31,076 bases of DNA, taken from positions 1 to 31,076 of the IMG/VR virus record IMGVR_UViG_3300008266_000947; one strand, written 5' to 3'. Shown here in pieces: positions 4,727 through 30,458 of the stretch (its first letter is position 1; each line of letters begins with the position of its first letter). Source of the DNA: a virus. Both the position numbers and the translations under genes were made by a program. The notes beneath the pieces were generated by a model. It saw only the letters and a program-made list of their open reading frames with translations, was not told the origin of the DNA and did no database searches.

Positions 4727-6097
4727 ATGAACATCATCACGAATAAAAAACAATTAGACGAAGTAGTTGCTTACTACCTAACGCAAGATGCGTTTGCTTT
4801 TGACGTTGAGACCGTCGGTGACCGACGTGGTGATACTCCTATCAACGAAGTGCTTTGGATTACGCTCGCCACACACGGGAGGGCAGACGTAATTCCTATG
4901 GGTCACCCTAATGGAGAGTTACTTGAAGTAATTTATCCATTAACCGGCCAGGGCGAAAAGCGGGTAGAAAAGGGGCTACCCGCTCGTCCCAGCGATTACT
5001 CTCGAGATGCTAAGAAAGCAACATACGTTTATTCAGAGCCACCCGCTCAATTATTTCCAGCAGATGTTTTTAAGGCGTTAGAGCCTCTGTTCTTTAATGA
5101 CAAGGTATTAACCGTTGGTCACAACTTACTTTTTGATTTAACTTCTGTAGCAAAGTACTACGGAGGTCGCGTCCCATCTGGTCCTTACTTTGACACGATG
5201 ATTGGTTCTTTTGTTTTAGATAACCGTAATAAAAATAAAGTTGGTCTTGACGACTGCTTACAGCGTGAGTTCGGGTATCACATGGTCAAGGGCGTAGGTG
5301 CTGCAGTAGAGAAGCACACGTTTAAAGACGTAGCCAAGTATGCGTATCTAGACGCCAAGTACACGTTTTTACTATGGAAAAATCTAGCGCCTCGCATAAC
5401 CGAGTCTAAAGTAGACAAGATTATGAAGTTAGAGATGGACGTGCTTGCTGTCCTTTGTGCTATGAAACTGACCGGAGCACCTATTGACACAGAAGCTCTC
5501 GAACATTTGTACGAAAAACTTTTAGAGGATATAGAAAAAGCCAAGGCTGAAATATTTAAAACGGCTGGTAGACAGTTCAATATTAATAGCAATCAGGAAA
5601 AACAGTACCTTCTGTATTCATCTAAGAAGGACGGTGGCCGAGGACTTCCTCCTAAGATGCTTACGCTTCGAGGAGAGCAGCGTGATGCTGCAGGCAAAGA
5701 GTTGGACTATTCGGACTATTCAGTCTCTGCCGAAGCACTTGAAGCCTATAGAGACCGTGACCCATTAGTTACCGCACTGCTTACTTATTCAGACTTAAAT
5801 AAGTTGCTTACTACTTATGTTGTTCCATATATGGGCGGAGACGTCACCCGTACCTCTGGTGGCAAAACTAAGATTGAGCATAAAGAAAGTCTTTTAATTA
5901 ACAAACGAATCCACTGCGACTTTGTACAACATGGTGCGGAGACTGGACGTTTTTCTAGTCGTAATCGGCTAGTGAGAACGGTAAAGCAATTCGTAACCTG
6001 TTCTACGCTCCACCAGGCTACAAACTTGTGGTTGCGGATTACTCACAGATTGAACCACGCATTATTGCCTCTATGTCAGAGGACCCAATTATGTTAG
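4727..6097 (+). CDS. family A DNA polymerase, N-terminal part (exonuclease and start of polymerase domain), frame-disrupted
   Basis: From the ATG at 4727 the protein shows a DnaQ-like 3'-5' exonuclease: Exo I FDVET (D26, E28), Exo II GHNLLFD, and Exo III YAYLDAKYT. It then runs into the polymerase domain as far as TGRFSSRN at 5941-5965. Family A polymerases continue there with PNLQNIP, but here the frame reads RLVRTVKQ and then nonsense until a stop at 6097. The true continuation, ENGKAIRNLFYAPPGYKLVVADYSQ, is in another frame starting near 5974. Thus the PNLQNIP segment is missing and the frame is shifted by -1 in the same 15 bases. Real residues of this part therefore end near 5970. No 5'-3' exonuclease domain is present. 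Confidence 0.85.
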   Translation: MNIITNKKQLDEVVAYYLTQDAFAFDVETVGDRRGDTPINEVLWITLATHGRADVIPMGHPNGELLEVIYPLTGQGEKRVEKGLPARPSDYSRDAKKATYVYSEPPAQLFPADVFKALEPLFFNDKVLTVGHNLLFDLTSVAKYYGGRVPSGPYFDTMIGSFVLDNRNKNKVGLDDCLQREFGYHMVKGVGAAVEKHTFKDVAKYAYLDAKYTFLLWKNLAPRITESKVDKIMKLEMDVLAVLCAMKLTGAPIDTEALEHLYEKLLEDIEKAKAEIFKTAGRQFNINSNQEKQYLLYSSKKDGGRGLPPKMLTLRGEQRDAAGKELDYSDYSVSAEALEAYRDRDPLVTALLTYSDLNKLLTTYVVPYMGGDVTRTSGGKTKIEHKESLLINKRIHCDFVQHGAETGRFSSRNRLVRTVKQFVTCSTLHQATNLWLRITHRLNHALLPLCQRTQLC

Positions 6098-8526: not shown

Positions 8527-9127
8527 AGGACAGAAGGAGTCAAGGAAGCACGAGGACCGACTCGCTAAGAAAGTTGGCGGAAAGCGTAATGCTGGAAGCG
8601 GAGCTTTTTGGAGTCGAAAAGGCGATGTACGTTCAGAAGATTTGCTCATAGAGCATAAGTGGACGGGCAAAGCCTCCGTATCCGTTAAGGCTGCGGTTCT
8701 TGAAAAGATTGTCAAAGAAGCAATTCTTGACAGTCGAATGCCTGTCCTTGGCTTTCATCTCAACGGTGAAAATTACGTTTTGTTAACTGAGGACGACTTC
8801 CTGGAACTGCGCCAATATCTCCAGGAGTGCTCTTGTACGAAGACGAAGGTCGATGCCAAATGTAAAGGCATGGACACCGAGATGTGGTTCCCGCCACGAG
8901 ACAAAGATTTATATAAACCAATTGCTAACCAAGCTAAAGCCGTCTGCTTTGGACGCGACGGTTTGTCAGAGTGCCCTGTTAGAGTACAGTGCCTTCTGTA
9001 CGCAGAGGGCAATGACGAACAACATGGAATCTGGGGCGGACTTTCTCACAGAGAAAGAAACGCTCTTCGCAGAAAAGCGGAGAAAAAAGGTTTCACACTA
9101 GAAGAATGGGTTAGGAATAATAAATGA
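8513..9127 (+). CDS. fusion of resolvase/nuclease-like domain with a WhiB-like Fe-S domain
   Basis: The first 100 residues (KHEDRLAKKVGGKRNAGSGAF, KGDV, then LLIEHKWTGKASVSV) look like a small PD-(D/E)xK nuclease of the Holliday-junction-resolvase type, with D38 and E47-x-K49 as candidate catalytic residues. Residues about 115-190 are WhiB-like: four cysteines (C117, C145, C154, C160), the ECPVRVQCLLYA segment and the GIWGG turn (172-176), then a basic C-terminal helix. WhiB proteins bind 4Fe-4S and regulate transcription in Actinobacteria and their phages. Here the usual C-x2-C is C-x8-C because of a six-residue insertion. No stop separates the halves. The ORF overlaps the recombinase by 14 nt and the next nuclease by ATGA. 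Confidence 0.7.
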   Translation: MTRSKGQKESRKHEDRLAKKVGGKRNAGSGAFWSRKGDVRSEDLLIEHKWTGKASVSVKAAVLEKIVKEAILDSRMPVLGFHLNGENYVLLTEDDFLELRQYLQECSCTKTKVDAKCKGMDTEMWFPPRDKDLYKPIANQAKAVCFGRDGLSECPVRVQCLLYAEGNDEQHGIWGGLSHRERNALRRKAEKKGFTLEEWVRNNK

Positions 9128-24392: not shown

Positions 24393-26263
24393 GCGACTCG
24401 TACTCCAATCTCGCCTTGAACGATGTCGGTAGCAATCCGCACAAGGTCGGACGGCTGGGATATAACATTAAAGTATTTAGCGTAGTGACGATAGTGTTCG
24501 ATGTAATCAACGTCCACGTCACGGTGCATGTAACCGATGAACACGGTGCTTGTGATAACGCCCGAGTCATTGAACGCTTTGATGTAATCGTCGCATGGCT
24601 CAGAGTGGTCAAAGCCACCGTCGGTTACGATAAATAATAATTTAGTGGTACGGCTACTCATGTTAAATATTTGCTCGGCTTCTTTTAGAGCCATGAGTGG
24701 GTTAGTTGTACCGCCTGTGTGAAGGACGCGAACGTTCTTAGGGTCAGCGTTCTCGGTAGCAGAGTAGAGAAGTCGGCTTCCGCTATTGAAGGCATAGACG
24801 GTGGTGTTGGCGTTGATACGTTCCAAGCCACGCTTGATAGCCCACACCGAACGGCATGCTTCTGTAATTCGATAGCCCATAGAACGACCTGACGATAACT
24901 CACGCAACCATGTTGGCTCGGCTTCTACCTCTAGACGTTCTAACTCACGACCGAACTTCTCAGCAGATAAGTCGATGTCACTATTGAGAGAGACATGTTC
25001 GTCACGATAGCGAGCCTGTTTCAAAGCACCGTTGTATTCGCTATTGGTATCGACCGCTTCTTTGAAGTTGCGAACCTCACGACGTACCTGCTCGTTCTCA
25101 CGGATTTCTTTGGCACGTTGTTCAAGCATGTCAGCGATGTCTTGGTCGGTCTTGCGTGTGTCCTGCTCTAACTGCTCGGAGTCAACGTTGTCGTTGTACT
25201 CATGGGTTGAGTCGCCTTGACCGTCGCCACCGTTAATAGTTTCGTCGTCGGATTTATTATTTAACTGCTCGGCTTTGTCCTGCTTGTCTGCTTCTTGTGC
25301 TTTAGCAGAGTCAGCGTTCTGTTCTTTCTGTGAGAGTGGGCGACCGTTTTTCATTGGCTTGCGGTCGGCACAACCGTTAGGACAATCGAGGTTTAATTCG
25401 TCGCCTTGTTGGTTGCCTTCGCCTTCGTTACCTTCACCGTTATCGCCCTGAGGATTATTACCTGAGCCAACAATCTTTGAGTAACGCATGATGAGTGGCT
25501 TGGCTAGTTCAAAGTCGCGTGGGAATACAAGAGTACGGTATTGGTCAACCACGTCAGCAACTTCCTGAGCAACCTTGATACCGTGTGCTTCGATGAAGCA
25601 ATCAGCAATACGTTGACGGATAGCAAGAGGAATATAGCGACGACCGCGAGTTAATAGAAAAAGCGTGTCGTTATTATTAACGTCATGGTTGGCAACGTAT
25701 GAGATGAAGTTAGACTCCAAGAACAAGCGAGTGCTTGGGAAGCGAGCCGTGAACAACGTTTCAATACGCATGTCCTCTAAGTAGTTCATGGCACGTTGTA
25801 CCTTGTTCTTGACCGCCCATTGGATTAACTCAGAACCTGCTCGGGGAGTGTAGATAAGGTGGCAGAGTTCGTGATAGTTCAAGCCATTGAGAGCCGTTAG
25901 GTCTGTTTCAGACAACGCACGAACAACGTCTAGATTGAACATGACGGTCTTGCCGTCAGACCAACCTGAGACACCGTCGTACTGTCCTTCGTCGTCAGCA
26001 GTTGGCTTGTAAGTCTTGACACGAACGTCGCCTTCTTTGGTGAGGATACGGTCTGCGGTTGTGAACACGGAACACATTGAGTTTAACTCTGCGTGTTCCA
26101 TGTCCACGATGTCCTCAATGGTGTCAGCGATGTTGGTAATTTCGTCCTCAGTTAACTGACTTGAAATTAGGTCAACCCATGTCTGCTCGTCGTAGCGTTC
26201 AATGACTAGTTCTTTGTAGTCATAGATATTGAACTGTGCTTCGTCTGCCCATTGACGGCTCAT
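24389..26263 (-). CDS. CobT-like protein with metallopeptidase-like HExxH and C-terminal VWA domain
   Basis: The 624-aa protein has three parts. Residues 1-260 form a helical domain with LNYHELCHLIYTPR, an HExxH (H131-H135) like that of putative VWA-linked metallopeptidases. Residues about 266-400 are an acidic, Gly/Asn/Gln-rich linker with a CPNGC pair. The last 200 residues are VWA-like: HTGGTTNPLMAL (T of MIDAS) and LLFIVTDGGFD (D548). The first MIDAS element, normally DxSxS, reads ELSSGRSM, so it looks degenerate. It overlaps the AAA+ gene by ATGA, the usual MoxR/VWA or CobS/CobT pairing. Such pairs remodel or insert metals into client proteins. The client here is unknown. Confidence 0.8.
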   Translation of the reverse strand: MSRQWADEAQFNIYDYKELVIERYDEQTWVDLISSQLTEDEITNIADTIEDIVDMEHAELNSMCSVFTTADRILTKEGDVRVKTYKPTADDEGQYDGVSGWSDGKTVMFNLDVVRALSETDLTALNGLNYHELCHLIYTPRAGSELIQWAVKNKVQRAMNYLEDMRIETLFTARFPSTRLFLESNFISYVANHDVNNNDTLFLLTRGRRYIPLAIRQRIADCFIEAHGIKVAQEVADVVDQYRTLVFPRDFELAKPLIMRYSKIVGSGNNPQGDNGEGNEGEGNQQGDELNLDCPNGCADRKPMKNGRPLSQKEQNADSAKAQEADKQDKAEQLNNKSDDETINGGDGQGDSTHEYNDNVDSEQLEQDTRKTDQDIADMLEQRAKEIRENEQVRREVRNFKEAVDTNSEYNGALKQARYRDEHVSLNSDIDLSAEKFGRELERLEVEAEPTWLRELSSGRSMGYRITEACRSVWAIKRGLERINANTTVYAFNSGSRLLYSATENADPKNVRVLHTGGTTNPLMALKEAEQIFNMSSRTTKLLFIVTDGGFDHSEPCDDYIKAFNDSGVITSTVFIGYMHRDVDVDYIEHYRHYAKYFNVISQPSDLVRIATDIVQGEIGVRVA

Positions 26264-27651
26264 GCTTGAACCGCCTCTGCTACTTGCTCAGCCACGTCGG
26301 TCACAAAGTTGACTTCGATACCAAAGTCTTGGGCGATGTTCGCCTTGTAAGTGTTCTCGACAATTACACGGACGGCGTTGCGTTCCTTCATGTCGCCGAA
26401 CCCATTGAGGAAGGAATAGATAGCGTAATCCAATCCCAACTTGTGGATATTATTAGAGAAGGTCACTAGTGACCGTGTAGAGATTGGCGTCATGATTTCA
26501 CGACGTTCTCCGCCTTCACGCAACGCCTTTGCCATTTCGAGCAAGGACTTTGCCTTGATGAGACGACGCTCGATAGTTGGGTCGTAGTCGAACTCCAACT
26601 TGTGCGCCCAACGGTCTTTGAACGCTTCGTTCATTGGACGTGTACCGCGATAGTTCGGGTTCATGTCAGCGATGATGAGAAGGTTCGGGTGAGCGTGAAC
26701 AATCTCGCCGTTGTTACCCATAAGTTGTAGGTGACGGCGGTCGTCGAGCAGAGAAAAGATAGCGGTCGTGACACGTTCAGGAAGGAAGTTAACTTCGTTG
26801 AGAAGCAATACACCGCCGTTGCGAACAATCTGAGTGACCGCACCGTCTTGCCACTTATAGTGACCGTCAGGCGTTGGTATCCAACGACCAATCCACTCTG
26901 AAGGCTCAGAGCCGTTGTGAGATGAGATGTTGTAGTAATCGAGGTTGCGAGTAGAGGCATAAGCGAGTGCGCTCATGGTCTTGCCCGAACCTGTCGGCCC
27001 AAAGATGAGGACGTTCTCAGCATTGGCTAGGGCAGAGTCAAAGATTTCAAACTCTGTGTGACCTGAGGGCAACTTACGATTGACGTAGGTGTTAGCCCAC
27101 TTCTTATCGGGCACTTCAGCAACGATAACGTCGGTTGAAGTCGGTGCGTGAGTTGCGACAGGGACAACGGTCGTCTCAGGCTCTCGCTCGGGTTGGAACG
27201 ACACCCCTAGAGGATTTCGCGCTTTGCCGATTGGTCGTAGAGAGACGTTAGAACCGTCAATGACAGAGGATTGAAGGTCAGCAGAGCCTTCGATGAGCAT
27301 GTCACGCATGAGTTTGACTACGGTAAGGTAGTCAGAGGTAGTTTCAAGGGTAGTGACAGGGGAGTTCTCGTCCCATAGTTTCATAGCCTTGTTAGAGACA
27401 GGAGTAATAAGACCAATACCTGCCTGAGCGATGTTGTTGGTAGATACGGAGAAGCAGAACGGTGCTTCGACCTTATCCGTATTAGGCAGTTCACCTAGCG
27501 AAATTGTGCGCCAAGCCGAACCGCGACCACGTTGACCTGTATATTCTCTGTGGAATAGGAGAGTGTCAGACTCCTGTGGCATGATGAGTGTTTGATAGCA
27601 AGTAGAGGCGTTATAGCCGACTACTAGTACCGCAAGGCTTTCTTGCGACAT
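26260..27651 (-). CDS. MoxR/CobS-like AAA+ ATPase
   Basis: The ATG at 27651 has AAAGGGG nine bases upstream and is preferred to a start at 27750. The 463-aa protein has an unrelated N-terminal domain (about 1-180), then an AAA+ core: Walker A GPTGSGKT (218-225), Walker B LLLNEVN (282-288, Asn in place of the usual Asp), and a sensor-1 segment IIADMNPNY, then FKDRW. These match the CobS/MoxR branch, whose members work with VWA proteins such as the one encoded next. Roles known in the family include cobalt insertion (CobNST) and chaperone-like activation. The gene leads the long minus operon and sits below operator region 1. Confidence 0.85.
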   Translation of the reverse strand: MSQESLAVLVVGYNASTCYQTLIMPQESDTLLFHREYTGQRGRGSAWRTISLGELPNTDKVEAPFCFSVSTNNIAQAGIGLITPVSNKAMKLWDENSPVTTLETTSDYLTVVKLMRDMLIEGSADLQSSVIDGSNVSLRPIGKARNPLGVSFQPEREPETTVVPVATHAPTSTDVIVAEVPDKKWANTYVNRKLPSGHTEFEIFDSALANAENVLIFGPTGSGKTMSALAYASTRNLDYYNISSHNGSEPSEWIGRWIPTPDGHYKWQDGAVTQIVRNGGVLLLNEVNFLPERVTTAIFSLLDDRRHLQLMGNNGEIVHAHPNLLIIADMNPNYRGTRPMNEAFKDRWAHKLEFDYDPTIERRLIKAKSLLEMAKALREGGERREIMTPISTRSLVTFSNNIHKLGLDYAIYSFLNGFGDMKERNAVRVIVENTYKANIAQDFGIEVNFVTDVAEQVAEAVQA

Positions 27652-27735
27652 CTTGTAAGACCCCTTTCTGTTGGGCATAGGAGTATTCAACCACCGCATA
27701 CCGACAGAACCTGCCACCCGAGCCAATAATCTTTC

Positions 27736-27751
27736 TGTGATTAGCGTCACA
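27736..27751. promoter_or_regulatory. Crp/GlxR-like operator, TGTGA-N6-TCACA (perfect)
   Basis: TGTGA TTAGCG TCACA. It lies 16 bases from block A of copy 1 and about 85 bases before the AAA+ ATPase start. The sequence matches the known Crp/GlxR consensus of Actinobacteria and E. coli CRP. Confidence 0.7.
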
Positions 27752-27823: not shown

Positions 27824-27916
27824 CTAACATCTGGTCATACCGCCGTGACCGCCGTCACATTTCGGGCAGTAGCCGAAATAGCCATAAGCAGACATAGCGA
27901 TTTGTCGACATTTCAT
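27824..27916 (-). CDS. possible 30-aa zinc-motif protein
   Basis: A 30-codon ORF gives MKCRQIAMSAYGYFGYCPKC followed by DGGHGGMTRC, with four cysteines and a His that could form one zinc site. It is followed at once by a small hairpin (AGCCC loop GGGCT) on the minus strand, as a gene would be. No Shine-Dalgarno is present, and the operator pair at 27920-27951 ends four bases before the ATG. It may be a real leaderless or repressed gene, or chance. Confidence 0.4.
   Translation of the reverse strand: MKCRQIAMSAYGYFGYCPKCDGGHGGMTRC
27844..27859. promoter_or_regulatory. Crp-like operator with one mismatch
   Basis: CGTGA CCGCCG TCACA differs from the consensus by one base. It lies inside the possible 30-aa gene and may be part of its coding sequence rather than a working site. 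Confidence 0.4.
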
Positions 27917-27919
27917 GTC

Positions 27920-27951
27920 TGTGAGCAATGTCACATGTGACTTACGTCACA
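27920..27951. promoter_or_regulatory. two abutting perfect Crp-like operators
   Basis: TGTGA-GCAATG-TCACA (27920-27935) is directly followed by TGTGA-CTTACG-TCACA (27936-27951). Two 16-bp sites with no gap could hold two dimers only in an unusual side-by-side way, or act as alternative frames of binding. Their junction TCACATGTGA is itself a palindrome. Confidence 0.7.
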
Positions 27952-27962
27952 GCCGGTGGCAG

Positions 27963-27994
27963 TGTGGGCAGAATCACATGTGAGATTGGTCACA
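27963..27994. promoter_or_regulatory. second abutting pair of Crp-like operators
   Basis: TGTGG-GCAGAA-TCACA (27963-27978, one mismatch) abuts TGTGA-GATTGG-TCACA (27979-27994, perfect). The pair sits 11 bp from the first pair, about one helical turn, giving four sites in phase across 75 bp. Confidence 0.65.
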
Positions 27995-28028
27995 TCTCTC
28001 TAACAACAACTCCCTAACGGATAGGGAG

Positions 28029-28054
28029 GGTGGGCCAACACAAACATTTTTCGC
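28029..28054 (-). repeat. conserved block B, copy 1
   Basis: GGTGGGCCAACACAAACATT (plus strand) continues to TTTTTCGC. The same core occurs in all four intergenic regions of this arm, always between a hairpin and an operator. On the minus strand it reads towards the operators, so it lies upstream of them. Confidence 0.8.
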
Positions 28055-28526: not shown

Positions 28527-28573
28527 AGGCGTTCATCTCCCAATGAACAGGTAAGCCTTGTTGCTTACATAGA

Positions 28574-28631
28574 GAACTCTAGGTTATGACCTCTCTGAAA
28601 CCTGCCACCCAGCAGTGTGATGCTTCTCACA
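28574..28631 (-). promoter_or_regulatory. promoter/operator module, copy 2
   Basis: On the minus strand in order: operator TGTGA-GAAGCA-TCACA (28631-28616, perfect), five bases, block A GGGTGGCAGGTT (28610-28599), 15 bases, then CCTAGAGTTC with TAGAGT as -10 (28581-28576). Taking the block A end CAGGTT as -35 gives a 17-bp spacer. The inferred start site is near 28569. Confidence 0.6.
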
Positions 28632-28676
28632 ATAATAATAAATCTCTTTCCCATATATTCCCATAATATTAAATGG

Positions 28677-28703
28677 GGTGGGAGGGCCAACACAAACTTT
28701 CGC
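28677..28703 (-). repeat. conserved block B, copy 2
   Basis: GGTGGGAGGGCCAACACAAA then CTTTCGC, matching copies 1, 3 and 4. It touches an extended palindrome that includes the operator at 28708-28723. Confidence 0.8.
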
Positions 28704-28707
28704 CGGC

Positions 28708-28723
28708 TGTGACGCACGTCACA
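28708..28723. promoter_or_regulatory. Crp-like operator in an extended palindrome
   Basis: TGTGA-CGCACG-TCACA is perfect and lies within a longer dyad flanked by GCCGG and CCGGC. It can serve as an operator in DNA and as a hairpin in the minus-strand RNA just after the Gp88-like gene. Confidence 0.6.
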
Positions 28724-28769
28724 CCGGCCAGCGGGCCCGCCGTGGGAGCGACGGGCCGGCCGGGACTGA

Positions 28770-29465
28770 TTACCTCTTCGTTATGGAGAATGTCATGTCT
28801 GCCCTCCCTTTAACACAGATTCCGCATGCAACGCATGCACCGGCCAGTGGCACTTGCTTACGTTGCTCGGGGCACATTGCTGCACGGGGTAGAACAGCCT
28901 TGGCCTCTTCAAACGTATCTTTAAGCATTGCCAGGGCGATTCCCTTCTCCTTAAGGGTCATCGCCGTCTGCAGATTGTCATCGTCTGCAGAAAAGTAAAG
29001 CGCGAGATTCTCTAGATTGTTACCGGCCAGTAGCTGAGCTGCAGCTGCATTGCGTGTATACGTCCAAAAGTGGACATCTTCATGGCGTTTAATAATATTA
29101 ATCCATGCCATGGTATAGGCCTCATTGAAGAAATCGCCATCCCAGTGAATGCGGAATAGTTTATCGGCGTTGAATTTCTCGCATTCGAATTTAAAATCAT
29201 TAATAATTACGTCCAATAGGGCCGTAATAGTGTCGACGTCTGCATCCTTGACTAGGTCCCAATTGTGGGCCATGACATTACGGACCGACGGTCTCATTCT
29301 CTCAAGCCGTCCCGCGTAGCAAACTCTCTCGCATATGGACGTCGCGCCAGGGCACGAGTACTCTTTACCGCTAAGTAACCCGAATGAATTCGCAATACGT
29401 ACGGCACCGCCAGGGGTGAGCGAATTCGTCACCTTGATATCTTTAGACCTCTTCAATTTCTCCAT
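28770..29465 (-). CDS. Gp88-like cysteine-rich phage protein
   Basis: The 231-aa protein has CPGATSICERVCYAG (C38, C45, C49), FRIHWDGDFFNEAYTMAW (104-121), VHFWTYTRN, LYFSADDDN and a late cluster C198 ... C211-x2-C214-x2-C217. This matches my recollection of the Gp88 family of actinophages, sometimes likened to radical-SAM proteins. The cysteine sets could hold one or two Fe-S clusters. Activity is not established. The ATG lies six bases after TAGATT, so the message is probably leaderless. It is a single-gene unit with operator copy 3 upstream and copy 2 downstream. Confidence 0.7.
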   Translation of the reverse strand: MEKLKRSKDIKVTNSLTPGGAVRIANSFGLLSGKEYSCPGATSICERVCYAGRLERMRPSVRNVMAHNWDLVKDADVDTITALLDVIINDFKFECEKFNADKLFRIHWDGDFFNEAYTMAWINIIKRHEDVHFWTYTRNAAAAQLLAGNNLENLALYFSADDDNLQTAMTLKEKGIALAMLKDTFEEAKAVLPRAAMCPEQRKQVPLAGACVACGICVKGRADMTFSITKR

Positions 29466-29471
29466 GGCCTA

Positions 29472-29527
29472 AATCTATAGCCCTATATACCGTTAACCTG
29501 CCACCCGGCCGTGTGACTATGGTCACA
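29472..29527 (-). promoter_or_regulatory. promoter/operator module, copy 3, leaderless
   Basis: On the minus strand: operator TGTGA-CCATAG-TCACA (29527-29512, perfect), five bases, block A GGGTGGCAGGTT (29506-29495), 15 bases, TATAGATTTA with TAGATT as -10 (29477-29472), then six bases and the ATG at 29465. The operator centre is about 54 bp before the inferred start site, as in copies 2 and 4. Confidence 0.65.
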
Positions 29528-29559
29528 GCGTGTCTCTTTAATAATATATTCCCTAATGA

Positions 29560-29588
29560 GGTGGGTGGGTCAACACAAACATTCTCGC
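29560..29588 (-). repeat. conserved block B, copy 3
   Basis: GGTGGGTGGGTCAACACAAA then CATTCTCGC. It is followed on the plus strand by a GC-rich palindrome CGCGGGCCCCGCG at 29586-29598. Confidence 0.8.
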
Positions 29589-29604
29589 GGGCCCCGCGAC
29601 GTGC

Positions 29605-29628
29605 AAAAGCCCCGCCTTTCGACGGGGC
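29605..29628 (-). terminator. rho-independent terminator, minus strand
   Basis: On the minus strand GCCCCG (29628-29623) pairs with CGGGGC (29614-29609) around an 8-nt loop, followed by TTTT. It ends the unit whose last gene stops at 29646. Confidence 0.8.
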
Positions 29629-29645
29629 CTCGCGTTATTCGGGGG

Positions 29646-29813
29646 CTAACCGAAACTTTCGCAATCGTGAGGCTTGGTATAGTCAAACTCACAGTAATAG
29701 CAAATCATATATTCCTCGCACTTATTGCAGATATATTGAAACTGCAATTCGTCACAATGGAGTATTTGCTCATCGACAATCGTGTAATTCGCGTCTTTGC
29801 TAATTGTCGTCAT
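29646..29813 (-). CDS. small zinc-binding protein, 55 aa
   Basis: The ATG at 29813 overlaps the stop region of the preceding gene; longer starts would intrude into that gene. The product contains ICNKCEEYMICYYCEFDY followed by HDC: C-x2-C-x5-C-x2-C plus a His-x-Cys, a dense treble-clef or double-knuckle zinc site. It ends the three-gene unit from 30310. Function unknown. Confidence 0.72.
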   Translation of the reverse strand: MTTISKDANYTIVDEQILHCDELQFQYICNKCEEYMICYYCEFDYTKPHDCESFG

Positions 29814-30021
29814 GCGGGTCGTACCACCCTTCACTAGTGTTGTCGTATCCGCAATACTTACACTTCCACTCGGCATACCATGAGACTATGCCATGAGAGT
29901 ATTCTGAGTAGGCGGGGAACTCACTTTCTTGCTCGCACTCGCCACACTCGGAACTTTGAACTTCCTCGCTAGAGTTAGCGTAGGCAACGGTATCGCCACC
30001 AAGGTACATAGGCTCACTCAT
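29800..30021 (-). CDS. small zinc ribbon protein, 73 aa
   Basis: The ATG at 30021 has GGAGG six bases upstream. The acidic 73-aa product has ECGEC near residue 26-30 and KCKYCGYD near 54, giving C-x2-C twice, i.e. a zinc ribbon, with Tyr/Trp between. It overlaps the gene before it by 8 nt and the one after by 14 nt. Confidence 0.75.
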   Translation of the reverse strand: MSEPMYLGGDTVAYANSSEEVQSSECGECEQESEFPAYSEYSHGIVSWYAEWKCKYCGYDNTSEGWYDPHDDN

Positions 30022-30310
30022 CGCAAGCCTCCAACTTGAAATCAGCATAGTCGCTGATAAACGGGTCGAGGTGATGAGCCTCGGCAATAGCGTTGGCAGG
30101 TGCGGAGGTATTGCCTCGCCATGTCACGCCTTCAGGTAATTCGATTAGGCGTTCATAGTCGCCGTCGGCACACGCATAGATAGCCTCGATACAAGGTATC
30201 ACCATGCTAGTAGGTACAGGTGGATAGTGATTAGAGGTAAGGTGGATAGTCACGCCTTGTTCAAGCGAGATACCGCTATCAACCAAACCGTCCGCATAGG
30301 TACGTCCCAT
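30014..30310 (-). CDS. hypothetical protein, 98 aa
   Basis: The ATG at 30310 follows AAAGGGG by eight bases and lies about 25 bases after the start site inferred from module copy 4. The 98-aa product has a beta-rich start (GISLEQGVTIHLTSNHYP) and an acidic helical remainder with one short DGDYERLIELPEGVTW segment. No family is recognised. It heads a three-gene unit of otherwise zinc-binding proteins. Confidence 0.72.
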   Translation of the reverse strand: MGRTYADGLVDSGISLEQGVTIHLTSNHYPPVPTSMVIPCIEAIYACADGDYERLIELPEGVTWRGNTSAPANAIAEAHHLDPFISDYADFKLEACDE

Positions 30311-30341
30311 ACGATTAGCCCCTTTCTGATTAGGTGAGATA

Positions 30342-30397
30342 AATCTATACCCTCATTACTTACAAACCTGCCACCCGCCGGTGTGATATAGGTCACA
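30342..30397 (-). promoter_or_regulatory. promoter/operator module, copy 4
   Basis: On the minus strand: operator TGTGA-CCTATA-TCACA (30397-30382, perfect), five bases, block A GGGTGGCAGGTT (30376-30365), 15 bases, TATAGATTTA with TAGATT as -10 (30347-30342). Spacing is identical to copy 3. Unlike copy 3, a leader with a strong Shine-Dalgarno follows. Confidence 0.65.
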
Positions 30398-30424
30398 CTC
30401 TCTTCTTTCCCCATTTCCCCTTAT

Positions 30425-30458
30425 GTGGGTGGGTGGGCTACCAACACAAACATTTCGC
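30425..30458 (-). repeat. conserved block B, copy 4
   Basis: GTGGGTGGGTGGGCTACC leads into AACACAAACATTTCGC. It has three extra bases in the middle compared with other copies and an additional GTGG repeat at the start. Confidence 0.75.

Follow-up and report, generated by a model that had tools for sequence, protein, structure and literature searches.

How are the repeated promoter-like modules on one strand of an actinophage-like genome read, and does the regulator that reads them belong to the phage or to its host? The DNA analyzed here (the window) is an IMG/VR virus record of 31,076 bases with a GC content of 46%, and its genes include those for RecA, DNA polymerase A, a B12-dependent ribonucleotide reductase, GP88, and a MoxR-like AAA ATPase. 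The promoter modules, the operator cluster, the block B copies, the hairpins beside them, and the genes downstream of the modules lie on the minus strand.

The phage and its probable host

A megablast search of the window against phage records returned no match. At the protein level, the closest relatives of its RecA are from Streptomyces phages, e.g., BRock and Alone3 (~47% identity), and those of its GP88 are from mycobacteriophages (~50% identity). The window also encodes a WhiB-family domain (8852 to 9067, plus strand, E 1.6e-17), a candidate co-regulator. WhiB is a family confined to actinobacteria; matches were found in 12 of 15 contigs searched, and among 14 control genomes only in the sole actinobacterium. 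Because of this distribution, and because WhiB serves as an actinophage marker in the literature (PMC6802176, PMC10202952), the host of the window phage is most likely an actinobacterium; from the same two studies, we would guess that these phages occupy freshwater. As a separate observation, the DNA polymerase A ORF (4727 to 6097) breaks off after the first part of the polymerase domain (profile positions 2 to 125 of 381), with a frameshift, a split gene, or an insertion as possible causes.

A promoter module repeated with rigid spacing

The initial annotation had described a phage-made family of four-part promoter modules with fixed spacing, and three exact copies of such a module were found between 28576 and 30397. 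Each consists of an operator, TGTGAN6TCACA, followed by 5 nt, GGGTGGCAGGTT, 17 nt, and a TAGANT -10 element, so that the gap of 15 bases originally given between the second element and the -10 needs to be amended to 17 nt in all three copies. The exact string TGTGAN6TCACA-N5-GGGTGGCAGGTT occurs in the window only at 28599 to 28631, 29495 to 29527, and 30365 to 30397, always on the minus strand, and exact GGTGGCAGGTT occurs at four positions (27708, 28599, 29495, and 30365). Allowing one mismatch, there are 11 operator sites in the window compared to 0.96 expected in shuffled sequences, approximately elevenfold over chance, and 10 of the 11 lie within 27.7 to 30.4 kb.

In copy 4, the operator TGTGACCTATATCACA, of the CRP/GlxR type (30382 to 30397), precedes GGGTGGCAGGTT as the -35-region element (30365 to 30376) and a -10 of TAGATT (30342 to 30347), assigned from sequence and position statistics. 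The downstream gene (30014 to 30310), which is preceded by the ribosome-site-like sequence AAAGGGG, encodes a 98-aa product with no Pfam or PHROGs match at E<=0.01. Copy 3 comprises the operator TGTGACCATAGTCACA (29512 to 29527), GGGTGGCAGGTT (29495 to 29506), and TAGATT (29472 to 29477), with an ATG 6 nt downstream that begins a GP88 family gene (28770 to 29465; PF17338, E 4e-45). Copy 2 comprises the operator TGTGAGAAGCATCACA (28616 to 28631), GGGTGGCAGGTT (28599 to 28610), and TAGAGT (28576 to 28581), followed by a 5'-UTR hairpin, GTAAGC-AACAAG-GCTTAC (28551 to 28568), recognized from sequence and family statistics. With the -10 set at -12 to -7, the operator centre falls at -54.5, in agreement with the value of about -54 proposed earlier.

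The fourth proposed part, block B, behaves differently: across 36 modules, its distance from the operator varies from 51 to 98 nt, and only three of the four parts are therefore rigidly spaced. Block B was accordingly rejected as a fixed-position promoter part and is treated below as a separate structural element at variable distance.

The family also proved larger than first noted. IMGVR_UViG_3300031857_000987, which overlaps the end of the window (640 nt identical around the seed, with differences further out), contains the same three modules exactly and five more with the same gap, one of these five having an operator mismatch, for a total of eight GGGTGGCAGG modules. Together with the fixed positions of the repeats, this upholds the view that the promoter family is built into the phage genome. 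A single module searched by blastn against phage records gave no match.

Two promoter types share the operator-to--10 distance

Relatives were gathered by searching with GP88, the AAA ATPase, and block B. In the type 1 relatives L080 and L082, the operator is followed after ~5 nt by AGGGTGTAGGTC or AGGGTCTAGGGT, in register with GGGTGGCAGGTT, and by TANNNT at the same place. In the type 2 layout (G010 to G013, L073, and G020), the operator is followed by gCAAAg (CAAA..TTGG), TTGG, 17 nt, and the -10. All 17 type 1 modules, which come from three phages, have TANNNT at +34 to +36 relative to the operator (mean 0.93, maximum 5 in 2000 shuffles). Among the 19 type 2 modules, 16 have [TG]ANNNT at +34/35, compared to 1.5 under the null, and TT(G)G precedes it by 17 nt. 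These counts do not represent independent events, since modules were sorted by post-operator motif before testing and those within a phage are related. Over both types, the operator centre reckoned from the -10 position is -54.5/-53.5. Given that types 1 and 2 share their -10 placement, the operator-to--10 distance is conserved across phages while the intervening sequence varies.

Two broader searches were discarded. GGTGGCAGGTT-N15-19-TAGATT in IMG/VR gave, beyond the same phage, chance-like matches without an operator, and the operator followed by GGTGGCAGG at a free gap matched a different element of low-GC phages (L006, L009 to L013) plus single chance sites. In those low-GC phages, TGTGAN6TCACA is followed by CCCTAAACCATTGACAGGTGGCAGGT...AGACCATTAGGGC-like sequence, apparently a leader of a different, structured kind.

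Predicted start sites and the polymerase

The initial annotation placed transcription starts about seven bases past the TAGANT boxes, and two orthologous genes support this placement. In both the window phage (TAGATT-TAGGCC-ATG) and L080 (TAAGGT-CTACCT-ATG), exactly 6 nt separate the -10 from the GP88 ATG, and because of this spacing the GP88 mRNAs are predicted to be leaderless, starting at the ATG. Stems of at least 6 bp beginning 2 to 9 nt past the -10 were present in 15 of 36 modules (null mean 1.3, maximum 7), a count whose criteria were set after the positions had been seen, and an earlier, looser count was weak (20 compared to 13.7 expected). The leaderless GP88 genes and the 5'-end hairpins agree with each other and support a predicted start ~7 nt past the -10 and, with it, an operator centre at -54.5. 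Among the 5'-end hairpins, an AACACC loop between GC closing pairs recurs in 5' UTRs of, e.g., L080, L062, L100, and L033.

The invariable presence of TANNNT at its fixed place in type 1 modules is what a sigma-A-type promoter would show. No TTGACA-like -35 was found 16 to 18 nt upstream, where type 1 modules have CAGGTT, TAGGTC, or similar sequences and type 2 modules have TTGG, a partial match. Many activator-dependent promoters are without a TTGACA-like -35, and its absence therefore weakens only the claim that the modules are standalone promoters. A Sigma70_r4 profile detected nothing on fourteen contigs, while the same search gave matches in control genomes. From the TANNNT -10 and the weak or non-consensus -35 region, we suggest that host RNA polymerase with a housekeeping sigma-A-type factor would read the modules, with a phage-specific conserved element (GGGTGGCAGGTT in the window phage) occupying what would be the -35 region.

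How that element might be recognized is suggested by WhiB7, which contacts sigma-A as well as the DNA immediately upstream of the -35 (PMC3905903). By analogy, a phage-encoded WhiB on sigma-A may read the -35-region element. In WhiB7/sigma-A promoters, a motif adjoining the -35 is read jointly with sigma-A, and the window phage and its relatives encode WhiB proteins, but the WhiB7 motif is AT-rich whereas GGGTGGCAGGTT is GC-rich, and a reading of GGGTGGCAGGTT by WhiB is offered as a proposal only. Phages without CRP boxes carry WhiB too, so nothing links WhiB specifically to the -35 element.

Host CRP/GlxR as the probable reader of the operator

The operator palindrome TGTGAN6TCACA is the CRP consensus. 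The consensus of GlxR, mostly an activator, is TGTGANNTANNTCACA (PMC4254451), and the central TA of that consensus (positions 8 and 9) is the commonest dinucleotide among the operators, although not universal (19 of 48 distinct operators). The initial annotation regarded an operator near -54 as unusual by the class I and class II positions of CRP. That judgment is not supported, as the E. coli class I/II rule is not an appropriate standard for a phage whose host is probably an actinobacterium. CRP sites in Mycobacterium tuberculosis cluster from -60 to -40, a zone that includes the box of the modules, and deletion of crp lowers expression of Rv1592c, whiB1, and Rv1057, with sites at -54.5, -57.5, and -59.5, respectively (PMC4117774). 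Since M. tuberculosis CRP activates from these positions, exactly -54.5 among them, the module geometry is ordinary for actinobacterial CRP.

We consider it reasonably probable, on sequence grounds, that the modules are sigma-A-type phage promoters carrying a box for host CRP/GlxR acting as an activator. The single palindromic box at -54.5 in each module would bind the cAMP-dependent host protein, and CRP there would most likely activate by recruiting polymerase to a promoter without a good -35. From such activation it would follow, as a proposal, that small auxiliary genes are switched on jointly when host CRP-cAMP is present. Host CRP appears to be the simplest reader of the box, assuming that the host carries crp.

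The sign of control is uncertain, because cAMP-CRP represses the phage T1 promoters pir, dam, and recE (PMC6737242). Host CRP could similarly hold the auxiliary genes off in high-cAMP cells and free them when cAMP falls, and the type 2 -35 (TTGG with a 17-nt spacer) could suffice on its own, with no activator needed. However, the type 1 -35 region is unlike TTGACA, and the M. tuberculosis genes with increased expression after crp deletion carry promoter-proximal sites, from +3.5 to +6.5, whereas those with sites from -44 to -60 decrease (PMC4117774); repression therefore seems rather unlikely.

It is also doubtful that a phage-encoded CRP mimic reads the box as part of a phage-internal regulon, e.g., an immunity system. 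Different, largely mutually exclusive operators are repeated behind the same block B, as phage-specific sites would be, but the box matches the CRP consensus exactly, and a CRP-family domain is absent from 15 contigs, including those of 74 to 98 kb. Specifically, HTH_Crp was found on none of eight contigs and a cNMP-binding domain on none of fifteen, several of 70 to 98 kb; the same searches gave matches in controls. Because the contigs are fragments, a phage CRP could still lie outside them.

Stoperators of the mycobacteriophage L5 type are asymmetric, oriented sites bound by the phage repressor. The sites of the window phage are symmetric palindromes and do not fit this description.

If the boxes do bind host CRP, then the phage gene array would be expressed in direct response to host metabolic state.

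Copy 1 and the operator cluster

Upstream of the MoxR-like AAA ATPase gene (26260 to 27657; PF07728, E 2e-20), for which the start at 27657 is our choice (the longest ORF extends to 27750), copy 1 consists of the operator TGTGACGCTAATCACA (27736 to 27751), the 16-nt GAAAGATTATTGGCTC (27720 to 27735), and GGGTGGCAGGTT (27708 to 27719). Its -10 was described as poor, and the candidate, TTGAAT at 27685 to 27690, indeed is. The initial annotation also had its operator moved by 11 bp, or one helical turn. The difference itself is real, with 16 nt separating the operator from GGGTGGCAGGTT, but an additional element explains it better than a displaced operator does: GAAAGATTATTGGCTC is similar to the type 2 element, and GAAAGATTATTGG, between the operator and GGGTGGCAGGTT, resembles the operator-proximal gCAAAgcctATTGG of type 2 promoters in related phages. 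In L019, a relative of the downstream ATPase gene, a one-mismatch operator is followed by AAAATACTTTGG. Copy 1 thus looks like a promoter with both type 1 and inserted type 2 elements.

Further upstream, a block B is followed by four CRP-type operators clustered at 27920 to 27994 (27979 to 27994, 27963 to 27978 with one mismatch, 27936 to 27951, and 27920 to 27935), and similar clusters come after block B in L033, L034, L035, and L039. Between the window cluster and copy 1 lies a 23-codon ORF, MSAYGYFGYCPKCDGGHGGMTRC, with a CPKC motif (27824 to 27895, minus strand). Another sequence, TGTCGACAAA, recurs on the downstream side of both block B and the operator cluster, often near GGCTACTG (27880 to 27920 in the window, and in L040, L057, L059, L080, and L087).

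Block B, a structural element at variable distance

In the window, block B lies at 30398 to 30450 (copy 4; TTTGTGTTG, a C-rich run, and a purine tail), 29528 to 29579 (copy 3), 28632 to 28696 (copy 2), and 27995 to 28044 (copy 1 region). The pattern of TTTGTGTTG plus a C-rich run was found at 90 IMG/VR loci, although some of these sequences are clearly unrelated, and a single contig can carry as many as nine copies. By simple ORF calls, 75 of the 97 short-form copies with both neighbours called lie between two genes oriented like the element itself.

Among the distinct copies with a stem insert, 34 of 44 have a full Watson-Crick stem around CCCNCCCNCC, compared to a mean of 9.3 and a maximum of 20 in 2000 shuffles that exchanged partners of equal length, in a test confined to copies with the insert and not fully blind, as the loop was widened after inspection of the sequences (the narrower version gave a mean stem of 2.85 compared to 2.09 shuffled). 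This covariation supports the interpretation of the family as a hairpin with a C-rich loop, which would form either in the RNA or in one strand of the DNA. The hairpin characterizes the family as a whole but is not established for the window copies, because these have no full stem: the insert is absent from copies 2 and 3 and from the block B of copy 1, and the insert of copy 4 lacks a full stem.

A GC-rich hairpin often precedes block B, the T-rich start of which then falls in a terminator-like tail. Just before the block B of copy 3, for instance, a terminator-like hairpin (29585 to 29599) includes the block B TTTGT within its tail. Because the hairpin and the T-rich start form a terminator-like arrangement, we lean, with confidence just short of even, toward block B being a termination or insulation element. 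Block B, a hairpin element upstream of the promoter and separate from it, would then keep each cassette independent. A perfect CRP-type palindrome, TGTGACGTGCGTCACA (28708 to 28723), forms part of a more extensive GC-rich inverted repeat that ends shortly before the block B of copy 2; it is probably the stem of a terminator and not an operator.

That block B is the most conserved part across phages might instead point to it being the promoter itself or the RNA start, with the CRP box as a downstream roadblock. Yet there is no fixed -10 after TTTGTGTTG, the sole TANNNT peak (position 37, 14 of 107) being in a TTCG hairpin variant, and the -10 and 5'-UTR features place the start downstream of the operator, which makes this highly improbable.

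Block B had no match by blastn among 50,697 phage records or in Rfam 15 (E<=1) for L007 and L017, both rich in copies, and a single match in genome contigs, to an acidobacterium, was at about chance level. Several variants were observed. In long forms (L049, L053, L055, L063, L066, L090, L093, and L112), TTTGTGTTG has a downstream match in CAACACAAA, and other hairpins lie between the two. Reversed copies, most of them with the loop GGGGGGAAGT, lie beside a GC-rich hairpin (L065:1780-1855; also L043, L049, L058, L090, and L118) and may mark the edge of a cassette array. In copies without the stem insert, the bases after CCCC and GGGA usually agree (CCCCATT..GGGAAT or CCCCGTT..GGGAGT), a correlation of identity that simple pairing does not explain, and the short tandem repeats TTGTTGTT, TATGTATG, and TATATA come after such copies.

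Possibly exchangeable operators behind a shared frame

Depending on the contig, the sites behind block B are CRP boxes, CGTTAT pairs, CGACACGC, or DnaA-box-like sequences. For motifs picked after reading the sequences, densities per kb behind block B compared to elsewhere in the same loci were 2.2 and 0.07 for CRP boxes, 0.75 and 0.05 for CGTTAT pairs, 1.55 and 0.08 for CGACACGC, and only 0.56 and 0.16 for DnaA boxes. Other operators are rare on CRP-box contigs, with few mixed cases (4770_42, 32242_2477, and 21137_17), and CGTTAT and CGACACGC often occur together on one contig. Even upstream of the orthologous GP88 gene, the operator varies from contig to contig.

These patterns lead us to suggest, tentatively, that a large family of uncultured actinophages may share a cassette frame placed before many small genes (a terminator hairpin, TTTGTGTTG with the C-loop hairpin, an exchangeable operator, a -10, and a 5'-end hairpin), and that whole lineages may have exchanged one operator for another (CRP box, CGTTAT pairs, CGACACGC, and perhaps DnaA boxes), plugging the array into different, often host-owned, global regulators, with the C-loop hairpin as a new structured element. 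Regulators other than CRP for the swapped operators are guesses. Sister phages that combine this frame with different operators provide natural promoter swaps for comparison, and the C-loop hairpin, which covaries, reaches nine copies per contig, and gave no Rfam match for the two loci examined, is a new element that can be tested. A regulatory code this readable is rare in phages.

Comparison with known systems

Among the nearest cultured relatives of the window phage by RecA or GP88, BRock and Alone3 each contain one TGTGAN6TCACA and mycobacteriophage D29 contains none, in contrast with its repetition in the window phage. The modules resemble the M. tuberculosis Rv1592c and whiB1 promoters and the Corynebacterium glutamicum GlxR regulon, which have the same palindrome in the same -60 to -40 zone, -54.5 included; unlike these, the modules are phage-borne, are present in many copies, and have an invariant second element between the box and the -10. 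The proposed control by a host global regulator has a counterpart in the pir, dam, and recE promoters of coliphage T1, but T1 involves repression and another host phylum, whereas the window phage has a uniform array in which a box precedes each gene or small operon at a fixed distance. Phage promoters with a host CRP box are thus already known in kind, and the newer part is the cassette frame with its exchangeable operators and C-loop hairpin.
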